Shown here in pieces: positions 14,985-25,661 of a stretch of DNA of 34,870 nt. The stretch covers positions 1 to 34,870 of the forward strand of contig JAURVT010000024.1 of the NCBI GenBank assembly GCA_030655315.1. Reading direction: 5' to 3'. This stretch comes from Nocardioidaceae bacterium. GTDB lineage: Bacteria; Actinomycetota; Actinomycetes; Propionibacteriales; Nocardioidaceae. The notes below the pieces were generated by a model. That model did no database searches. It was not told the origin of the DNA and worked only from the letters and a program-made list of their open reading frames with translations. Within the stretch, counting starts at the first letter, position 1. Each line of letters starts with the position of its first letter. Both the position numbers and the translations under genes were made by a program.

Positions 14985-15643
14985 GTGGAGCTCTTGCTCA
15001 CCTCAGGAGGCGTCACCAACGCCAGCATCAGGGCGGCCCTCGAGGAGCAGCTCGGCAAGTCCATCGCCACGAGTCATGCGCTCTGCATTCCTACCCGCAG
15101 TGGGGGCATCCGATGTGCGGGCCGGTGTCGGCACGGCGACTACTAGCCGCGGGCTCTGACTCCCCCCATCTGTCGGGCCTGGGCTGGGCCTCCCTCGGCC
15201 TCCTCGAGCTCACCGCGCTAGCCACCGTCGGCGCCGAGCGGTGGATGCCCTGGGTCCACGAGGCCGACGCACTGCTGGTGGACGGTGGCGACGCGACCTA
15301 CCTGTGTCACTGGATGCGCACCTCCGGTCTGGCCGATCTGCTTCCCTCGCTGCACGAGACCGTCTGGGTGGGGGTGAGCGCCGGAAGCATGGTCATGGCC
15401 CCCCGTGTCGGCGCCGAGTTCGTCCAGTGGTCGCACGCGCCAGATGACCGCGCTCTCGGAGTGGTCGACTTCGGCATCTTCCCGCACCTGGGAGCATTCG
15501 CGGAGAACACCGCGGACGACGCCGCGCGATGGGCGGCTGGCATCGGTATCCCCGGGTATGCCATCGACGAGCAGACGGCCATCCGGGTCGACGGGTCAGG
15601 TGTCGAGGTGGTGTCCGAAGGGCGATGGACACGATTCGGTTGA
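14985..15643 (+). pseudogene. Peptidase E (S51 family), interrupted by a frameshift
   Basis: Two frames together encode an almost complete S51 aspartyl dipeptidase. Frame one starts at a GTG with GGAAGGAGG at 14972-14980 and reads LLLTSGGVTNASIRAALEEQ to ALCIPT. Frame two continues with QWGHPMCGP and runs to the stop at 15643. The join is at about 15096: ACC-CG-CAG is one base short of a plausible Thr-Ala-Gln. The second half keeps the nucleophile motif GVSAGSMV, DGGDATYLCHW and FPHLGAF (catalytic His region). Only this one lesion is seen. It could be a recent pseudogene, a sequencing error at the CCCG run, or programmed frameshifting, which I think least likely. Intact enzymes cleave Asp-X dipeptides in the cytoplasm. 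Confidence 0.82.
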
Positions 15644-15878: not shown

Positions 15879-16808
15879 TCAGCGGTCGGGGCTTTGGAGG
15901 TGTCGCCACAGCGTGGCCTGGACGGCCAGGGTGATCGTGCCGGCCACGACGATGCCCGCCAGGTTGATGGCCAGCTGCGCCAACGCCGAGGCCGCCTCGT
16001 GGAGGTCGCCCACCGCGAGGGTCAGGGCGAACGTCCCGACGGCCGGGATGGTGGTCACCGAGATGAAGACACCGACCAGCGCCGAGGACTTCGCCGCCGT
16101 CAGGGACAGCACGCCCGCCACGCCGGCGAGCATGGCCACGACCAGGGACCACACGTCCGGCGCGACGATGAACTCGGTCAGGTCGCCACTGGTGGCCGCG
16201 ACCTCGTCGACGGCGCCCAGCAGGCTCGCGACGGCCCAGAGCAGCCAGGCCACCGCGGCGGCGACACCCATGGCCGCGGCCAGGGTGCGGACCGCTCGGC
16301 CGATGAGCCGCCACCGTCCACGGGCGAGCCCGAAGCAGACGGCGGCGAGGGGGCCGAACTCGGGTCCGACGACCATCGCGCCGATGATCAGGATCGGCTG
16401 GTCCAGGTAGCGACCGATGCTCGCGATCAAGGTGGCGAGCACCATGAACGACACGAACGTCCACGTCAGCGTGGCGTTGCGGCAGGCGTCCTGCTCGACC
16501 GCGTCCCAGATCACCGCGTCGGCCGGCGACCCCGGGACGGCACGCTCGGCGTCGGTCGCCGCGTCGGACAGCACGGTCTGCGACTCCTCGATCACCAGCG
16601 ACCCGAGTCGTGGCACGTCGAGGCGTCGCAGGTCGTCGAGGACCCGGTTGGCACCCTCGCGGGCCAGGTCGAACATGACGAGGTCGCCGTCGCACGAACG
16701 GACCACCCCGGGGACGACCACGACGTTGACGACGCCGGGATCGGTCTCGATCCGCTCGACCACCCGGGAGCACAGGGAGCTCGGGGCGGTCAGTCTGACG
16801 TGCAGCAT
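15879..16808 (-). CDS. DUF389-family membrane protein
   Basis: A 309-residue protein. Residues 1-100 form a soluble, ACT-like N-terminal part beginning MLHVRLTAPSSLCSRVVERIE. At least six hydrophobic segments follow, including FVSFMVLATLIASIGRYL and QPILIIGAMVVGPEFGPLAAVC; the GAMVVGPEFGP segment is the hallmark of DUF389 (TIGR00341/TIGR00271). The function of the family is not established. It is the third gene of a leftward operon, 37 bp after the Usp-like gene, and the operon is divergent from kdp, which may hint at an ion-related role. Confidence 0.88.
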   Translation of the reverse strand: MLHVRLTAPSSLCSRVVERIETDPGVVNVVVVPGVVRSCDGDLVMFDLAREGANRVLDDLRRLDVPRLGSLVIEESQTVLSDAATDAERAVPGSPADAVIWDAVEQDACRNATLTWTFVSFMVLATLIASIGRYLDQPILIIGAMVVGPEFGPLAAVCFGLARGRWRLIGRAVRTLAAAMGVAAAVAWLLWAVASLLGAVDEVAATSGDLTEFIVAPDVWSLVVAMLAGVAGVLSLTAAKSSALVGVFISVTTIPAVGTFALTLAVGDLHEAASALAQLAINLAGIVVAGTITLAVQATLWRHLQSPDR

Positions 16809-16845
16809 GCCGTCATCCTGGCCCAGCGCCCGAACCGCGTGGGGA

Positions 16846-17301
16846 TCAGGCCGTGAGGAGCTGGTGGTAGACCACGACGTTCGGCTCCTCGGCCAGGGCG
16901 GCCTCGATCTCGGTGGCGTGCAGGGACGGACCCGAGGTGGCGGGCCGTCGCAGCTCGCTGGTGAACAGCTCGACCTGGTGCGTGGCGTGCCGACGGCGGA
17001 TCCAGTCGCGCACCGGGACGCCGACCTGGCCGTCGGCCGACCACAGCGTGACGAGGGTGACGTCGAGATCCCAGCTGGTCCACATCCGCTGCAGGCGTTT
17101 CTCGTCGGTCGAGCCGTCGCGGCCGTGGACGTGCACGGCGATGGTCTCCTGCGCGTCGACGGACAGCGCCGCCTCGAGGCATCTCGACGAGACCGCGTCG
17201 AGGTCGGCGATGGCCGCCACGGCGATGGTCCGGCCCGGGACTCGGGTGCGGCACGAGGCGCTCCAGGCGCCGGCGGCGACCGTGAGGACCGACGACCTCA
17301 C
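16846..17301 (-). CDS. Usp-like cytosolic domain protein
   Basis: A 151-residue soluble protein. An alternating alpha/beta pattern with GRTIAVAAIADLDAVSSRCLEAAL, ETIAVHVHGRD, LDVTLVTLW and a final NVVVYHQLLTA resembles the universal-stress-like C-terminal domain found fused to some APC-type permeases, here encoded alone. The GTG at 17301 overlaps the stop of the small membrane protein gene (GTGA at 17298-17301), so the two are translationally coupled. Nucleotide-binding motifs of classical Usp (G-x2-G-x9-G-S/T) are not evident. Assignment to a family is tentative, and a role as a regulatory partner of DUF389 is inference. Confidence 0.6.
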   Translation of the reverse strand: MRSSVLTVAAGAWSASCRTRVPGRTIAVAAIADLDAVSSRCLEAALSVDAQETIAVHVHGRDGSTDEKRLQRMWTSWDLDVTLVTLWSADGQVGVPVRDWIRRRHATHQVELFTSELRRPATSGPSLHATEIEAALAEEPNVVVYHQLLTA

Positions 17302-17447
17302 GGCAGCAGCATCCGCATCGTCACGGCCAGGGTGGCGGCGAGAGCGACCGCGGCGACGACCAGCAACGCGCCTCCGTCGCGCTCCCACCGGTCGGTCCAC
17401 GGGCGGGCCGGGCGTTCGGGGTCGTGGTGGGGGTGCGTGGTGGTCAT
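17298..17447 (-). CDS. Small single-span membrane protein, first gene of the DUF389 operon
   Basis: A 49-residue protein. The start is MTTTHPHHDPERPARPW, with a charged cytoplasmic segment, then one predicted helix (residues about 27-47, ALLVVAAVALAATLAVTMRM). The ATG has AGGAGACG upstream at good spacing, and the last codons overlap the GTG of the Usp-like gene. Third codon positions are nearly all G or C, supporting coding. I recognise no family; its size, single helix and tight coupling suggest a small subunit or regulator, comparable in style to KdpF but not similar in sequence. Confidence 0.7.
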   Translation of the reverse strand: MTTTHPHHDPERPARPWTDRWERDGGALLVVAAVALAATLAVTMRMLLP

Positions 17448-17532
17448 GGTCGTCTCCTGTCGGCGTGTGCGCGGTGCGCACGTTCGCCGTCGACGCTAGG
17501 CCGGGACGACGGCAAGGATCGAGACGACGGGG

Positions 17533-17549
17533 CGTCAAGAGATCGTGAA
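17533..17549. promoter_or_regulatory. CGTCAA/CGTGAA direct repeat upstream of the DUF389 operon
   Basis: CGTCAA (17533-17538) is followed by CGTGAA (17544-17549) at 11-bp spacing, 86 bp from the start of the small membrane protein gene. It resembles the repeat in front of kdpF. It is possibly a response-regulator site; inferred only from spacing and similarity. Confidence 0.4.
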
Positions 17550-17905
17550 AAAGAGTGTCGACCGTGGTGATGGATCGTGTCGCGACGTCGACGCTCCGGG
17601 CCTGGATCCTCGACGCCCGCCGGGTCGATCCTCGGCGGGTCGCCGACGGGAGCGAGCGGCGCGGGTCCACCCGAGGGGCGCGACTCACGCAGTCTCAGTC
17701 GCAGGCTCACCGGCTCCACCGAGGCATCCGCGCCGACCGCCGCCCGTCGAGCTCGCCGGCATCACGTGGCCGGTCGTGCGAGCCATCTGTCCGCGCGGAC
17801 GGCCAGGCGTGACGCAGCGCCCCGGCCGACAGATGCTTCCGCCGCGGCGAGCGCGGTCCGTCCGGCGACGAGCGCCGTGCGGCAGAGGAGGCGGGGGCAA
17901 GATCG

Positions 17906-17921
17906 CGTCAACGGCCGTCAA
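17906..17921. promoter_or_regulatory. Candidate KdpE site, CGTCAA direct repeat before kdpF
   Basis: Two CGTCAA units (17906-17911 and 17916-17921) are spaced exactly 10 bp apart, one helical turn. That is the arrangement used by OmpR-family response regulators, which bind as tandem dimers to direct repeats. It lies 51 bp before kdpF, whose operon encodes such a regulator, KdpE. Confidence 0.55.
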
Positions 17922-17972
17922 AGTCCCGTGATGATCGGCGGACGGCCCTCCGACCGGGTGTTGCCTGGGGAC

Positions 17973-18062
17973 ATGGATCTTGATTCCGCCGCCTTGCTGC
18001 TGGCCGTGGCCGGCCTGTGCGGCTACCTCCTTGCCGCCCTCGTCTGGCCGGAGAAGTTCTGA
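17973..18062 (+). CDS. kdpF: KdpF, small subunit of the potassium-transporting ATPase
   Basis: A 29-residue single-helix peptide, MDLDSAALLLAVAGLCGYLL followed by AALVWPEKF. Length, the GYLLAAL segment and the ending Pro-Glu-Lys-Phe are typical of KdpF, which stabilises the KdpABC complex in the membrane. The stop overlaps the kdpA start (TGATG at 18060-18064). Confidence 0.93.
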   Translation: MDLDSAALLLAVAGLCGYLLAALVWPEKF

Positions 18063-19723
18063 TGGGCGCGACCGCAGCGGGACTGCTGACGATCCTCGCC
18101 CTCGTCGGGGTGCTCGCCCTGGTCTACCGGCCCCTGGGTGACTACATGGCCGGCGTGCTGACGTCGACCAGGCACTCGAAGGTGGAGACGCTGGGGTACC
18201 GCGTGATCGGGGTCGATCCGGAGGGCCGGCAGAGCGCGCGCGGGTACGCGCTGTCCGTCGTCGGGTTCAGCGTCGTCAGCCTGGTGGTGCTGTTCGCGAT
18301 CCTGGTGGGCCAGTCGGTCCTGCCGTTCAGCCGCGGGCTGCCGGGCATGCCGTGGGACATGGCGCTCAACACCGCCGTCTCGTTCGTGACCAACACCAAC
18401 TGGCAGTCCTACGCCGGGGAGTCCACGCTCGGGTGGACCGCCCAGATGGCCGGTCTGGCGGTGCAGAACTTCGTCTCGGCCGCCGTCGGCATCGCCGTCG
18501 CCATCGCCCTGGTGCGCGCCTTCACCCGTCGCAGGAACGACGACCTCGGCAACTTCTGGGTCGACCTGGTGCGGATCAACCTGCGCATCCTGCTGCCGCT
18601 CGCGCTGGTCTCGGCGCTGGTGCTGGTCGGCCTCGGCGCCGTGCAGAGCTTCGCGCCCGACCGCGTCGTCGACACCGTGCTGGGCGGGCAGCAGACGCTG
18701 ACCTTCGGACCGGTGGCGTCCCAGGAGGCGATCAAGGAGCTCGGCACCAACGGCGGCGGATTCTTCAACGCCAACTCCGCCCACCCGTTCGAGAACCCCA
18801 CGGCGCTGTCGAACCTGATCGAGATCTTCCTGCTGCTGCTGATCCCGGTCTGCCTGACCCGCACCTTCGGCACCATGATCGGCAGCCGCAAGCACGGCTA
18901 CGCCGTGCTCGGGGCGATGACGTTCCTGTGGGGCGCGATGCTCACGGTCGCGCTCGTCTCCGAGGTCGGTGGCCACGGCGACTCCGCCCGCGCCGCCGGT
19001 GCGGCCATGGAGGGCAAGGAGACCCAGCTCGGCACGTGGGCCTCGACCCTGTTCGCGATCAGCACGACGGGCACCTCGACCGGCGCCGTCAACTCGGCGC
19101 ACGACTCCTTCACCCCGGTCGGCGGGGGCGCAGCGATGCTCAACATGATGTTCGGCGAGGTGTCCCCCGGCGGAGTGGGTGCCGGCCTCTACGGCTTCCT
19201 GATCGTCGCGGTGCTGGCGGTCTTCGTCGCGGGCCTGATGGTCGGGCGGACGCCGGAGTTCCTCGGCAAGAAGATCGGGACGACGGAGATGACCTACGTC
19301 GCGCTCTACACGCTGGCCTCGCCGGCCCTGGTGCTCATCGGCGTCGGCGTCGCGATCGCGATGCCCTCGTCGGCCGACGCGATGGGCAACGTCGGCGGCC
19401 ACGGATTCTCCGAGGTGGTCTACGCCTACACCTCGGCGGCGAACAACAACGGCAGCGCGTTCGGCGGCATCACCGTCACGTCCACGTTCTTCCAGCTGAC
19501 GCTGGCCGCGGCGATGCTGCTCGGCCGGTTCGTCCCCATCCTGCTGGTGCTGCGGCTGGCCGGGTCGCTCGCCCGCCAGGGCACCGTCCCCACCACGGCC
19601 GGCACCCTGCCCACCCACACCGTGCAGTTCGCCGCCCTCACCGTGGGCGTCATCGCCCTGGTGGCCGGCCTGACCTTCTTCCCGACCCTCTCCCTCGGCC
19701 CGATCGCGGAGGCCCTCTCATGA
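18062..19723 (+). CDS. kdpA: KdpA, potassium-binding channel-like subunit
   Basis: A 553-residue membrane protein that selects and conducts K+ in the high-affinity KdpFABC pump. About ten helices are predicted. The four selectivity-filter segments of the superfamily of K+ transporters are visible: [51 protein letters not shown] and [11 protein letters not shown]. The ATG overlaps the kdpF stop, although the frame is open slightly further upstream. The stop overlaps the kdpB ATG (ATGA at 19720-19723). The length is normal for the family and no lesion is seen. Confidence 0.97.
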
Positions 19724-21783
19724 CCACCCTCACCACCCCGCCGGAACCGACGACGCACACGTCGTCCAAGCGGATCCCCACCCAGCAGGGCCTGACCGGC
19801 CGCCAGCTGGTCGCCCAGCTCGTCCCCGCGGTCCGCAAGCTCGACCCGCGCCACCTGTGGCGCAACCCGGTCGTGCTGATCGTCTGGCTGGGCTCGGTGC
19901 TCACCACCGTCCTCGCGATCGCCGACCCGAGCGCCTTCGCGATCTCGATCGCGGTCTGGCTCTGGCTGACCGTCGTGTTCGCCAACCTCGCCGAGGCCGT
20001 CGCCGAGGGCCGCGGCAAGGCCCAGGCCGACTCGCTGCGCGCCGCACGCCAGGACTCGGTCGCCCGTCTCCTCGGTACCGACGGCGTCGAGACCCAGGTC
20101 GCGGGCACCGAGCTGCGTCCGGGCGACCGCGTGGTCGTCGAGGCGGGCGAGGTGGTCCCCGGCGACGGTGACGTCGTCGAGGGGGTCGCGAGCGTCGACG
20201 AGTCCGCCATCACCGGCGAGTCCGCGCCCGTCATCCGTGAGGCCGGCGGCGACCGGTCCGCGGTCACCGGCGGCACCACGGTCCTGTCGGACCGGATCGT
20301 CGTCGAGATCACCTCGGCGCCCGGCCACACCTTCCTGGACAAGATGATCGCGCTCGTCGAGGGCGCGTCGCGCCGCAAGACCCCCAACGAGATCGCCCTC
20401 TCGATCCTGCTCATCAGCCTGACGCTGGTCTTCCTGCTCGCCGTCGCCTCGCTCGCGCCCATGGCCCGGTACGCGGGCGCACCGCAGTCGACCGTCGTGC
20501 TGGTCGCGCTGCTGGTCTGCCTGATCCCCACGACGATCGGCGCGCTGCTCTCGGCCATCGGGATCGCGGGCATGGACCGGCTGGTGCGGGTCAACGTCCT
20601 CGCGATGTCCGGGCGCGCCGTCGAGGCCGCCGGCGACGTCTCGACGCTGCTGCTCGACAAGACCGGCACCATCACCATCGGCAACCGCCAGGCGTCGCGC
20701 TTCGTCGCGATGCCCGGTGTGGGCGACGACGAGCTGCGCGACGCCGCCCGGCTCTCGAGCCTGGCCGACCAGACGCCCGAGGGTCGCTCGATCGTCACCC
20801 TCGCCGAGGAGCAGGGAGGCTCCGGTGGGGTGCCGCAGGGGGCCGAGTTCGTCGAGTTCACCGCCCAGACCCGGATGTCGGGCATCGACCTCGCGGGCGG
20901 TCGGCTGGTCCGCAAGGGCGCCGCGTCGGCCGTGCACCGCTGGGTCGGCGGCGACGTCGCACCCGAGCTCGCTGACGCCGTCGACGAGATCAGCGAGGCC
21001 GGCGGCACCCCGCTGGTCGTGGCCGAGCGGTCCGGCACCGGCGGACGCGTGCTGGGTGTCGTCCACCTCAAGGACGTCGTCAAGGACGGCATGCGCGAGC
21101 GGTTCGACGAGCTGCGGAGGATGGGCATCCGCACCGTGATGATCACCGGTGACAACCCCAAGACCGCCAAGGCCATCGCCGACGAGGCCGGGGTCGACGA
21201 CTTCCTGGCCGAGGCCACCCCCGAGGACAAGCTCGCGCTCATCCGCGAGGAGCAGGCCGGCGGGCGCATGGTCGCGATGACCGGCGACGGCACCAACGAC
21301 GCCCCCGCGCTGGCCGCGGCCGACGTCGGCGTCGCGATGAACACCGGCACGTCGGCGGCCAAGGAGGCCGGCAACATGGTCGACCTCGACTCCGACCCCA
21401 CCAAGCTCATCGACGTCGTCGCGATCGGCAAGCAGCTGCTGATCACCCGCGGGGCGCTCACCACGTTCTCGATCGCCAACGACGTCGCCAAGTACTTCGC
21501 GATCATCCCGGCCATGTTCGTCGCGGCCTACCCCGGCCTGGACGCGCTCAACGTCATGCGCCTGGGCTCGCCGGAGTCGGCCATCCTCTCCGCGGTGATC
21601 TTCAACGCGCTCGTCATCGTCGGCCTGATCCCGCTCGCTCTGCGTGGGGTGGCGTACCGCGCGGCCTCGGCGGCATCGGTCCTCAACCGCAACCTGCTCG
21701 TCTTCGGCGTCGGGGGAGTGGTCGTGCCGTTCCTCGGCATCAAGCTCATCGACCTCGTCGTCTCCCCGCTGCTCTCCCTCTGA
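19720..21783 (+). CDS. kdpB: KdpB, P-type ATPase subunit
   Basis: A 687-residue P-type ATPase that drives K+ uptake. The phosphorylation motif DKTGTIT is at Asp313. The actuator-domain TGES has its Ser near residue 168, the position phosphorylated for inhibition in the E. coli protein. The P-domain hinge [12 protein letters not shown] is present, and the helix segment [21 protein letters not shown] contains the family's PTTIG. The start overlaps the kdpA stop; the long upstream extension of this frame lies entirely over kdpA and is a shadow. kdpC follows after 19 bp. Confidence 0.97.
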
Positions 21784-21802: not shown

Positions 21803-22444
21803 ATGACCACGACCACCTCCTCCACGCCCGTGACCACTCGGCCCTCGGTGGCGTCGCTGGCCACCGACCTGCTCCGGCAGGGCTGGACCGGGCTCCGCGC
21901 GCTCCTCGTGCTCACCGTCGTGCTGGGGGTCGTCTACCCGGTCGTCGTCTGGGCCGTGGGGCAGCTCGCCTTCGGCGACCGCGCCGACGGCCAGCTCGTC
22001 CAGCAGGACGGCACCGTCGTCGGATCGGCCCTGATCGGCCAGCCCTTCGACGCCGAGACCGCGCCGGGACTGTTCCACTCCCGCCCGTCCGCGGGTGGGT
22101 ACGACCCGCTCGCGACCGCGCCGTCCAACCTCGGACCGTCCGACCCCGACCTGGTGAGGAGCATCGAGCAGCGTCGCGCGGACGTGGCGCGGACCAACGG
22201 CGTCGCGCCGTCGGCCGTGCCGCCCGATGCCGTCACCGCGTCCGGCTCGGGCGTCGACCCCTACGTCTCGCCCGCCTACGCGGCCCTCCAGGTGGAGCGT
22301 GTGGCCGAGGCCTCGGACCTGACGGTGGGCGAGGTGCGCACCCTCGTCGCCGAGCACACCCACGGCCGTTCGCTCGGCTTCCTCGGCGACCCGAAGGTCG
22401 ACGTCCTGCAGCTGAACCTGGCGGTCCTCGCCGCGGGCCGGTGA
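21803..22444 (+). CDS. kdpC: KdpC, potassium-transporting ATPase subunit
   Basis: A 213-residue protein with one N-terminal helix (about residues 33-53, LLVLTVVLGVVYPVVVWAVGQLAF) and a large external domain. GSALIGQPFDAETAPGLFHSRPSA, DPYVSPAYAALQVERVA and VLQLNLAVLA are family hallmarks. It stabilises the complex and may act as a catalytic chaperone for nucleotide binding. The stop overlaps the GTG of kdpD (22441-22444). Confidence 0.96.
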   Translation: MTTTTSSTPVTTRPSVASLATDLLRQGWTGLRALLVLTVVLGVVYPVVVWAVGQLAFGDRADGQLVQQDGTVVGSALIGQPFDAETAPGLFHSRPSAGGYDPLATAPSNLGPSDPDLVRSIEQRRADVARTNGVAPSAVPPDAVTASGSGVDPYVSPAYAALQVERVAEASDLTVGEVRTLVAEHTHGRSLGFLGDPKVDVLQLNLAVLAAGR

Positions 22445-24990
22445 CCGCTCGGCACGGACGCGGGCGCCTGCGGATCTACCTCGGTGCAGCGCCCGGCGTC
22501 GGCAAGACCTACGCGATGCTCGGCGAGGCGCGGCGTCGGGCCGAACGGGGCACCGACGTCGTGGTCGGGATCGTCGAGACCCACGGCCGGGTCAGGACCT
22601 CCGACATGGTCGGCGACCTGGAGGTGCTGCCGCGCCAGCTGCTGGACCACCGCGGGACGAGCCTCACCGAGCTGGACGTGGACGCGGTGCTCGTCCGCGA
22701 GCCCGACGTCGTCCTCGTCGACGAGCTCGCCCACACGAACGTCCCCGGTGCGGGCCGCGACAAGCGGTGGCAGGACGTCGAGGCGATCCTCGCCGCGGGC
22801 ATCGACGTGGTGACGACCGTCAACGTGCAGCACCTGGAGTCGCTGAACGACGTGGTCGAGTCCATCACCGGCGTGCGCCAGCGCGAGACGGTCCCGGACT
22901 CGTTCGTGCGGGCGGCGGACGCGATCGAGCTGGTGGACATGAGCCCGCAGTCCCTGCGGCGACGGATGGCGCACGGCAACATCTACCCCTCGGAGCGGAT
23001 CGACGCGGCGCTGTCGAAGTACTTCCGCGAGGGCAACCTGGCGGCCCTGCGGGAGCTGGCGCTGCTGTGGGTGGCCGACGGCGTCGACGCGGGGCTCGAT
23101 CGTTACCGCGAGTCCCACGACATCGACTCGACGTGGGCCACGCGCGAGCGCGTCGTCGTCGCCGTCACGGGTGGTCCGGAGTCCGAGACCCTGCTCCGCC
23201 GGGCGGCGCGCATCGCCACCCGGTCGGCCGGCGGCGAGTGGCTGGCCGTCTACGTCGCCCGCGGCGACGGTCTGGTCGGGCCGGGTGCCGACCAGCTCAC
23301 CCGGCAGCACCAGATGATCAAGGCCATGGGCGGCACGTTCCACACCGTCGTCAGCGACGACGTGCCCGAGGGCATCCTCCAGTTCGCGCGTGCCGAGAAC
23401 GCCACCCAGATCATCGTGGGTGCCTCCCGCCGCAGCAGGCTGTCCGCGGTGCTGCGCCCGGGCGTGGGGGAGACGGTGATCGCCGACTCCGGCGACATCG
23501 ACGTGCACATCGTCAGCCACGACTACGCCCGTGGTGACCACGCCACCCGGCGACCGCGACGGGGTGAGATCGGGCCCCGGCGGCTGGCCGCCGGCTACCT
23601 CCTGGGCGTGCTGGGGCCGTTCGCCCTGTCCCTGCTGCTCCTGGTGACCGACGACCTGCACGGTCTGCCGACCGAGTCCCTGGTGCTGATGGCCCTGGTG
23701 GTGGCCACCGCACTCGTGGGCGGTCTCATCCCCGCGCTGCTCGCCGCGGTGATCAGCGGGACGCTCCTCAACCTGGTCTTCGTGCAGCCCATCGGGACGC
23801 TGGGGATCGCCGACCCGGAGAACGCGTTCGCGATCCTCGTGTTCGTGCTGGTCGGGGTGGGGGTGGCGTCCGTCGTCGACCTGGCGGCGCGGCGCACGTC
23901 CCAGGCCGCGTCAGCCAGGAGCGAGGCCGATGCCCTGTCCGTCCTCGCCCACAGCCTCCTGCACGCCGGCGACGACATCTCCGAGCTGCTGCGGCAGACC
24001 ACCGAGGTGCTGCGGATGAAGGGTGCCGCCATCCTGCGGACCGACGCGGACGGGACCTCGGTCGTGGTGCAGCACGCCGAGGCACCCACGTCCATCGAGG
24101 ACTCCGACGTCGACGTCCCGATCAGCGCCGGGCTCGCTCTCGCGCTCGCCGGTCGCCGACTCCCCGCGGCCGACCGCCGGCTCCTCACCGCGTACGCCGC
24201 CCACGCCGCGATCGTCCTCGAGCGGCGTCAGGCCCGGTCGGACTCCGTCCGCGCCACCGAGCTCGCCGAGGGCAACCGGGTGCGGACCTCCCTGCTGGCG
24301 GCGGTCTCGCACGACCTGCGCAGCCCGCTCGCGGCCATCAAGGCCGCCGCGACGTCCCTGAGGTCCGAGGACGTCGACTGGTCACCGACCGACGAGGCCG
24401 CCCTCGTGGAGACCATCGACGAGTCGGCCGACCGCCTCGAGGCCCTGGTCGCGAACCTCCTCGACATGTCCCGGCTCCAGACCGGATCGGTCACCCCCCG
24501 CCGGGCGGCCGTCGACCTGGTCCACCTCGCGACGCGCGTCGTCGCGACCCTGTCCGAGCCAGGACGCGTCACCGTCTGTCGTCCGGTCGAGGACCCGCCG
24601 ATGGCGGTGGCGGACGACGGACTGCTCGAGCGGGTGCTGGCCAACGTGCTGGAGAACGGGATCCGCCACACGCCCGCCGGCACACCGGTCGAGGTTCGGG
24701 TGTCGAGCCACCGTGAGCAGGGCGCCGACCGGGTGTCGGTCCGGATCGTCGACCACGGACCCGGCATCCCGTCAGGAGCCTCGGACAGGGTCTTCGCGCC
24801 GTTCCAACGCCTCGGAGACGTTCCGCAGGGCGACGGTGTGGGCCTGGGACTGGCCGTGGCGCGCGGACTCTGCGAGGCGATGGGCGGCACCCTCGACGTC
24901 GAGGACACTCCCGGCGGCGGACTCACGATGGTGCTCGAGCTGCCCGCGCACGCCCCCGTGGACCTGCCGGCGCAGGAGCCCCTCTCATGA
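22441..24990 (+). CDS. kdpD: KdpD, sensor histidine kinase for potassium
   Basis: An 849-residue membrane kinase. Residues 10-220 are the KdpD domain with Walker A GAAPGVGKT (15-23) and Walker B-like VVLVDELAHTN. A Usp-like domain (about 235-360) contains IIVGASRRSRLSAVLRPGV. Four membrane helices follow (about 383-480, DUF4118), then a GAF-like linker. In the kinase core, His624 in VSHDLRSPLAAI is the phosphorylation site, and the N box NVLENGIRHTP, DHGPGIP and GDGVGLGLAVARGL bind ATP. It should sense low K+ or turgor and phosphorylate KdpE. The GTG start overlaps the kdpC stop, which sets it; the end overlaps kdpE by four bases. Confidence 0.96.
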   Translation: MTARHGRGRLRIYLGAAPGVGKTYAMLGEARRRAERGTDVVVGIVETHGRVRTSDMVGDLEVLPRQLLDHRGTSLTELDVDAVLVREPDVVLVDELAHTNVPGAGRDKRWQDVEAILAAGIDVVTTVNVQHLESLNDVVESITGVRQRETVPDSFVRAADAIELVDMSPQSLRRRMAHGNIYPSERIDAALSKYFREGNLAALRELALLWVADGVDAGLDRYRESHDIDSTWATRERVVVAVTGGPESETLLRRAARIATRSAGGEWLAVYVARGDGLVGPGADQLTRQHQMIKAMGGTFHTVVSDDVPEGILQFARAENATQIIVGASRRSRLSAVLRPGVGETVIADSGDIDVHIVSHDYARGDHATRRPRRGEIGPRRLAAGYLLGVLGPFALSLLLLVTDDLHGLPTESLVLMALVVATALVGGLIPALLAAVISGTLLNLVFVQPIGTLGIADPENAFAILVFVLVGVGVASVVDLAARRTSQAASARSEADALSVLAHSLLHAGDDISELLRQTTEVLRMKGAAILRTDADGTSVVVQHAEAPTSIEDSDVDVPISAGLALALAGRRLPAADRRLLTAYAAHAAIVLERRQARSDSVRATELAEGNRVRTSLLAAVSHDLRSPLAAIKAAATSLRSEDVDWSPTDEAALVETIDESADRLEALVANLLDMSRLQTGSVTPRRAAVDLVHLATRVVATLSEPGRVTVCRPVEDPPMAVADDGLLERVLANVLENGIRHTPAGTPVEVRVSSHREQGADRVSVRIVDHGPGIPSGASDRVFAPFQRLGDVPQGDGVGLGLAVARGLCEAMGGTLDVEDTPGGGLTMVLELPAHAPVDLPAQEPLS

Positions 24991-25661
24991 CCGCGGTGCT
25001 GGTCGTCGACGACGACCCCGGCATCCTGCGCACCCTGGGGATCAACCTGCGGGCGCGCGACTACGAGGTCGAGCTGGTCGCTGACGGGCGCACCGCGCTC
25101 CAGGCGTTCGCCGACGCGGTCTTCGACGTCGTCCTGGTCGATCTCGGTCTGCCCGACATCGGCGGGGTCGACGTGATCCGTCAGGTGCGCGCGACCAGCA
25201 CGGTGCCGATCGTGGTGCTGTCGGCGCGGCACGAGTCCGACGACAAGGTCGAGGCGCTCGACGCGGGCGCCGACGACTACGTGACCAAGCCGTTCGGGAT
25301 GGACGAGCTGCTGGCGCGGGTGCGCGCGGCTGCCAGGCGTGGCGGGACGCAGGCACGTCAGGCCCCGATCGAGGCGGGCGAGCTCTGGATCGACGTCGAG
25401 GACCGTCGCGTCGAGCGAGGCGGGGAGATGGTGCACCTGACGCCCACGGAGTGGCGACTCGTCGAGGTGCTCCTGGAGCATCCCGGGCGCCTGGTCCGCC
25501 AGGGCCACCTGCTGCGGACGGTGTGGGGTCCGGCCTCCGAGCGCGACACGAACTATCTGCGCGTCTACCTCGGCCGTCTGCGCCGGAAGCTGGAGGTCGA
25601 CCCGTCACGTCCGGACCACTTCGTCACCGAGCCCGGGCTCGGCGTCAGGTTCGTGCCGTGA
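24987..25661 (+). CDS. kdpE: KdpE, response regulator of the kdp operon
   Basis: A 224-residue OmpR-family regulator. The receiver domain (1-115) has the acidic pocket at Asp8-Asp10, phospho-acceptor Asp52 in VLVDLGLPD, and Lys101 in DDYVTKPF. The winged-helix DNA-binding domain occupies about 130-224 (LTPTEWRLVEVLLEHPGRLV, then YLRVYLGRLRRKLE). The ATG overlaps the kdpD stop. It should activate the kdp promoter under K+ limitation; the CGTCAA repeat at 17906-17921 is the best candidate site. I see no clear terminator after it. Confidence 0.96.
   Translation: MTAVLVVDDDPGILRTLGINLRARDYEVELVADGRTALQAFADAVFDVVLVDLGLPDIGGVDVIRQVRATSTVPIVVLSARHESDDKVEALDAGADDYVTKPFGMDELLARVRAAARRGGTQARQAPIEAGELWIDVEDRRVERGGEMVHLTPTEWRLVEVLLEHPGRLVRQGHLLRTVWGPASERDTNYLRVYLGRLRRKLEVDPSRPDHFVTEPGLGVRFVP

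Follow-up and report, generated by a model that had tools for sequence, protein, structure and literature searches.

A three-gene set divergent from kdp in a Nocardioidaceae genome, a possible accessory operon of potassium homeostasis

In KhtSTU of Bacillus subtilis and CpeABC of Streptomyces, a small protein and a c-di-AMP-binding RCK_C regulator go together with a K+/H+ antiporter, or likely one (PMC10117811, in the portion of the paper available). A second described system of relevance is KimA of B. subtilis (PDB 6s3k, 8b70, 8b71), which joins an APC-type membrane part to a cytosolic domain; the accessible part of PMC10284832 reports that this domain binds c-di-AMP through Gln581 and Ser582 together with Arg337 of the membrane part. 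Here we describe a locus in a Nocardioidaceae bacterium (assembly GCA_030655315.1) whose parts recall these systems. The window, i.e. the whole stretch of DNA that was analysed, comprises 34,870 nucleotides of contig JAURVT010000024.1 and contains a kdpFABCDE operon, from which three genes on the minus strand diverge: those of a 49-residue single-span protein (hereafter the mini-protein), a 151-residue soluble protein and a 309-residue DUF389 protein. The likeness to KhtSTU and CpeABC is one of layout only, with a tiny ORF, a cytosolic regulator and a polytopic protein in a K+ setting, and no homology is claimed. Where those systems have RCK_C and a cation/H+ exchanger, the present set has a KimA-type domain and DUF389, and Pfam detects no RCK_C or cation/H+ exchanger domain in the three proteins. 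An earlier note had described a three-gene set divergent from kdp and coupled by a 4-nt GTGA overlap, and both the frames and the overlap were confirmed in the DNA, as follows (positions are those of the window).

15879-16808, minus strand: DUF389 protein, 309 aa, ATG start (PF04087, E 5.4e-30)
15897-16526, minus strand: DUF389 residues 95-304, membrane part in the predicted structure; nearest solved folds FNT channels/aquaporin, suggestive
16554-16808, minus strand: DUF389 residues 1-85, PII-like (ferredoxin-like) domain in the predicted structure
16846-17301, minus strand: 151-aa soluble protein, putative stand-alone relative of the KimA cytosolic domain by profile comparison; GTG start
16864-17223, minus strand: residues 27-146 of the 151-aa protein, the part that hhalign aligns with the cytosolic domain of KimA
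17298-17301, minus strand: GTGA overlap of the mini-protein stop and the likely GTG start of the 151-aa gene, seen in the DNA
17298-17447, minus strand: mini-protein, 49-aa single-span membrane protein; ATG start, Shine-Dalgarno sequence CAGGAG 6 nt upstream
17316-17372, minus strand: predicted transmembrane helix of the mini-protein, residues 26-44, by hydropathy; helix conserved in relatives
17448-17972, no strand: 525-nt divergent intergenic region, mini-protein to kdpF
17973-18062, plus strand: kdpF (PF09604, 1.9e-6)
18062-19723, plus strand: kdpA (PF03814, 1.7e-218); start from gene calling
19720-21783, plus strand: kdpB, P-type ATPase domains (Pfam); named by domain and place
21803-22444, plus strand: kdpC (Pfam KdpC, 1.4e-63)
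22441-24990, plus strand: kdpD (Pfam KdpD)
24987-25661, plus strand: kdpE, response regulator (Pfam); named by domain and place

The 151-aa gene and the DUF389 gene run in the same direction with 37 nt between them, and third-position G+C is 0.92-0.96 in all three genes, as in the genes of the host genome, versus 0.72 in the intergenic region. The gene caller was trained on four pieces, one of them out of frame, and nonetheless recovered the known genes. On the far side, a peptidase S51-like gene (15125-15643; PF03575 match over profile positions 80-205 of 206) converges on the DUF389 gene. For comparison we used 294 genomes of the family, 143 of which contain kdpA, and examined 103 kdp loci in all, namely 100 further loci and those of the window, G141 and G132.

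Our preferred reading, to which we give a probability of roughly 0.55, is that the three genes form an operon with an accessory role in K+ homeostasis, linked to the Kdp pump. The mini-protein would sit in the membrane as a small subunit or modulator, either on Kdp or on a different K+ transporter; the 151-aa protein would act in trans on a K+ transporter, and the DUF389 protein would be the polytopic partner providing a regulated ion pathway, its PII-like N-terminal domain perhaps sensing a cytosolic signal. By analogy, this would be the logic of KhtSTU and CpeABC built from unrelated parts. Gene order, the likeness of the 151-aa protein to the KimA domain and the recurring K+ linkage of each part are observations; which proteins bind one another, what the ligand is, which ion moves and in which direction regulation works, we infer.

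The 151-aa protein had been called Usp-like, a label that we drop, since it has no PF00582 match in Pfam. Indeed no Pfam family matches it (none up to E 5), nor does any PHROGs entry, and its sole NCBIfam line is far below the cut-off. A profile made from three members of its family (A1), on the other hand, matches KimA (6s3k) over residues 477-533 with an E-value of 4.7e-6, the next match being at 0.17. In an hhalign comparison whose query was four stand-alone sequences, one of them a remnant, the family aligned with the C-termini of 25 KimA-like permeases, selected because A1 matched them, at a probability of 95.4 over 117 columns, versus 8.7 for KdpD Usp domains, and the parallel previously drawn with the Usp domain of KdpD is therefore abandoned. 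With KimA itself the alignment is confined to residues 477-533, and the full domain length is covered by way of the KimA-like permeases, whose kinship to KimA was checked for two, that of G348 (E 1e-118) and that of the host genome. Judging from these profiles, the 151-aa protein is a diverged stand-alone relative of the KimA cytosolic domain. It resembles KimA in this domain (the 117 aligned columns) and differs in being soluble, without the APC-type membrane part, and in lacking the HNQ[ST] segment, where KimA has its c-di-AMP contacts Gln581 and Ser582 and which in the stand-alone proteins is replaced by HATEI (window) or SGAEA (G141), in a part where the alignment is weak. Since this segment is lost, the protein would be a diverged relative rather than a canonical c-di-AMP-binding KimA domain, and a simple reading as a c-di-AMP sensor was rejected because the c-di-AMP-contacting segment is gone. 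A single-sequence AlphaFold model reached a pLDDT of 38. As for the start of the gene, the conserved core begins near residue 26 and an alternative GTG exists at residue 28 (17220), but GC3 is 0.96 over residues 1-27, which makes the overlapping GTG the likely start.

Elsewhere in the family we found three other clear stand-alone copies of this domain, all at kdp or kup (the latter assigned by Pfam): that of G141 is divergent from kdpF with kup adjacent, that of G131 adjoins kup, and that of G098, downstream of kdpE, is a remnant truncated by a mobile element. At the level of the class, kdpA or kdpB lies within the 1.5-kb flank in 4 of 23 loci with the domain (G570, G348, G427 and G445). A 160-aa domain gene of G570 (L344, 3984-4466), with neither kdp nor kup matched across 9 kb, counts against the K+-operon reading. 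The best class-level match, a full permease in G462 (L350), has no kdp or kup match in 10 kb, and a second G462 piece, of 82 aa (L345, 4383-4631), directly follows kdpC-kdpE-kdpD. Short class-level frames in G342 and G433 belong to permeases that run off the end of their contigs, the match in G453 falls outside the called permease gene, and a weak match in G009 is carried by no called gene. That of G570 aside, these short frames carry little weight either way. Two arrangements were seen in passing. In G570 a KimA permease before kdpF (L290, 1127-1899) is seemingly split in two frames, leaving the cytosolic domain separate, possibly as a pseudogene or as a step to a stand-alone domain. In G427 (L351) a KimA-type permease is flanked by a divergent kdpA-kdpB pair on one side and by a second kdpB on the other, and permeases of the L112 type (see below) follow.

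The host genome also encodes a full KimA that retains HNQT (contig C13; E 2e-110 to 6s3k) and a Kup (contig C9), and it contains a gene with a DAC domain, so that c-di-AMP is probably made in the host. The full KimA gene (L343) is divergent from two genes that we take to be similar to TrkA-type K+ regulators. It is conceivable, and we allow it an appreciable if minor chance, that the mini-protein and the soluble domain act on this existing KimA, on Kup or on Kdp, the domain pairing with or competing for the KimA cytosolic domain, while the DUF389 protein is a bystander. The presence of full KimA and Kup in the same cell is consistent with this, as is the situation in G141 and G131, where the stand-alone domain lies beside kup and no DUF389 gene occurs in the 12 kb read. 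KimA cytosolic domains, according to the accessible part of PMC10284832, also pair within the dimer. Against it, the DUF389 gene is co-directional and only 37 nt downstream, and DUF389 genes are kdp-linked in four genomes of another clade.

The smallest frame of the set also appears to be a gene. G+C by codon position is 0.74/0.58/0.92 in the mini-protein, versus a flat 0.71/0.75/0.72 in the 525-nt intergenic region, hydropathy predicts a single span at residues 26-44, and relatives of similar size have the helix pattern G..L...A..LA...A...R in common. Given the codon-position bias and the like-sized relatives with their common helix pattern, the frame looks coding, and the earlier note's view of it as a real gene is supported. 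A profile of the window, G144 and G132 copies (A2), leaving out those of G019 and G089, was run on the 294 family genomes; its next-ranked matches were G019 (E 1.0e-4) and G089 (E 1.8e-4), copies that were already known before this test though excluded from the profile. Both diverge from kdp, no more than 0.5 kb away from its first genes, and by a rough estimate the chance of both falling within ~1.5 kb of kdp in ~4-Mb genomes is ~1e-6. The G132 mini-protein overlaps the end of kdpC, while that of G144 is not at kdp and adjoins a 90-aa gene resembling a SAV_915 member beside kup in G131. A match in G014 (E 3.3e-4) was taken as chance, as it crosses a 540-aa gene in another frame, and 54-56-aa proteins after kdpE in G018, G047 and G085 (E 0.011, 1 and 0.1, with a circular profile) were not counted as members. 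No further clear mini-protein was found outside the family in 335 class genomes, where the best match (E 2.6e-4) lay in a 744-aa frame.

Like KdpF, the mini-protein is tiny, single-span and Kdp-linked. It lacks the PE[RK]F end (a motif taken from the kdpF frames of the surveyed loci), has a longer polar N-terminus and does not directly precede kdpA; that it is itself KdpF is contradicted by the separate kdpF of the window. We note that a second tiny hydrophobic ORF, often of 27 aa, occurs before kdpF at other loci, or replaces kdpF before kdpA (e.g. L179, L184 and L187). A rough rule finds both ORFs at 15 of the 103 kdp loci and only the non-kdpF ORF at 20, at least three of which (L191, L210 and L219) have in fact a kdpF with a variant end. 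The 90-aa gene recurs as well (L100:6544-6816, of the SAV_915 family; L098:6141-6413; L238:531-803), and its settings include a KimA-type domain with kup (G131), a mini-protein (G144) and kdpE with a CorA gene (G062).

The DUF389 protein matches PF04087 over its full length (104.6 bits against a cut-off of 23.9) and TIGR00271 at 1.7e-40, just under the NCBIfam cut-off, and it is the single copy found in the 4.18-Mb host genome. Members of this family (PF04087; TIGR00271, TIGR00341) mostly sit at other loci, in contrast to the window's copy in its three-gene set divergent from kdp. Flanks were examined for 29 distinct DUF389 loci, and nearly all of these apart from G126 lie at unrelated sites. 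In G126 the gene comes after a pair that encodes a short kinase and a regulator resembling KdpD (49% identity) and KdpE (57% identity), in G023 and G135 it comes directly after kdpE, and in G197 one DUF4118 gene lies between the two. The identity of a permease beside the G126 gene as KimA was rejected: the PDB gives no match at E 1, Pfam gives none above cut-off, and by profile the protein is remotely related to the membrane part of KimA alone. DUF389 lies within 10 kb of kdpA in 3 of the 25 genomes with both, or 2 of 24 without the window, for which a binomial P of 0.008 is too small, since G023 and G135 fall together in the tree and may represent one event. In a tree of 61 DUF389 proteins, the four kdp-linked relatives belong to a clade of eight and the window's protein is placed elsewhere, with starred support. 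Kdp linkage requires three changes on this tree, at least two of them forced, and most simply the linkage in the window is a separate gain, although long branches meet here, that of L184 (G197) is long, and two changes could be a gain and a loss.

How far the three genes belong together is a different question, and the earlier note's expectation of a conserved unit did not hold. The 294 family genomes yielded no other complete trio, and in them clear relatives of the mini-protein and of the 151-aa protein occupy different genomes, so that the parts travel separately. Among 149 family genomes, and with the window included in every count, 54 carry a DUF389 relative, 4 the 151-aa protein and 3 a clear mini-protein, and among the 103 kdp loci the mini-protein is found at 4, DUF389 at 4 and the KimA-type domain at 3. 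Nevertheless, each part recurs beside kdp or kup in some other genomes. One may also consider that the slot divergent from kdp simply hosts unrelated genes and that the three have no common process. The slot is indeed very variable across the 103 loci, the trio was found once, and K+ neighbours are absent at most DUF389 loci examined. Yet such a loose neighbourhood would not lead one to expect that the leave-out mini-protein profile matches adjoin kdp in two more genomes, that all three further clear copies of the KimA-type domain in the family lie at K+ genes, or that the DUF389 tree most simply calls for separate gains of kdp linkage, and we consider it unlikely. What stands of the earlier idea of an undescribed ion- or stress-responsive set is a group of uncatalogued genes, each with a K+ linkage elsewhere and with a coding-looking mini-protein, whereas its KdpD-Usp parallel does not. 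A phage origin was rejected, with no PHROGs match.

Within the preferred reading of an accessory K+ operon, the DUF389 protein would be the ion pathway, and its predicted structure bears on this. An AlphaFold model from 26 sequences (pLDDT 79.5) gives residues 1-85 a ferredoxin-like fold, nearest to the PII-like protein CPII (Z 10.7, rmsd ~2), with ribosomal and spliceosomal factor domains scoring near CPII and a Foldseek E of 0.046. For residues 95-304 the top folds are FNT channels (Z 11.4, rmsd 4.5, 199 residues) and aquaporins, with a Z that is under the tool's safe level for helical models and can arise by chance. Foldseek returned no match to the model at E 0.001, there was no PDB sequence match at E 10, and an internal inverted repeat was rejected on a profile comparison with a probability of 1-2%. 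The model is thus at most suggestive of the six-helix, inverted-repeat fold of FNT/aquaporin-type channels. It would be bolder still, and we think quite improbable, to see in DUF389 an unrecognised channel family that combines a PII-like sensor with an FNT/aquaporin-type pore and balances Kdp-driven K+ uptake, with gating in trans, at this locus, by a KimA domain split off from its transporter and with a new small subunit that anchors the channel to Kdp. Finally, a reading close to the earlier note, in which the 151-aa protein would serve as a stress sensor of the Usp type and act on KdpD as UspC does, is highly improbable in view of the Pfam and profile results above, even though the KdpD of the window has a Usp domain (PF00582, 6e-10) and UspC is reported, in the part of PMC11018627 that was accessible, to bind KdpD of E. 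coli at its Usp domain.

The occurrence of kdp linkage in two parts of the DUF389 tree suggests a testable role of this family in K+ homeostasis. By analogy, a KimA regulatory domain apart from its transporter would mirror the separate RCK gating subunits KhtT and CpeA, another such subunit being KtrA, and the mini-protein, as a new tiny Kdp-linked membrane protein, is a candidate extra subunit of a well-studied pump. In those parts of the open-licence literature that were available, we found no function for DUF389, which is named there as unknown, as a neighbour or as an over-expressed unknown (for instance among the over-expressed unknown genes of macrolide-resistant pneumococci), and no account of TIGR00341 or TIGR00271 function, of a stand-alone KimA domain or of a PII-FNT fusion.

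A further family was observed beside kdp, consisting of permeases of ~500-650 aa and represented by L112:1356-3230 and by 14 of the 103 kdp loci (e.g. L177, L185 and L243). For the copy tested, neither Pfam nor NCBIfam gave a match above cut-off and the PDB gave none at E 1; a profile comparison pairs it with the membrane part of KimA at a probability of 96.6.
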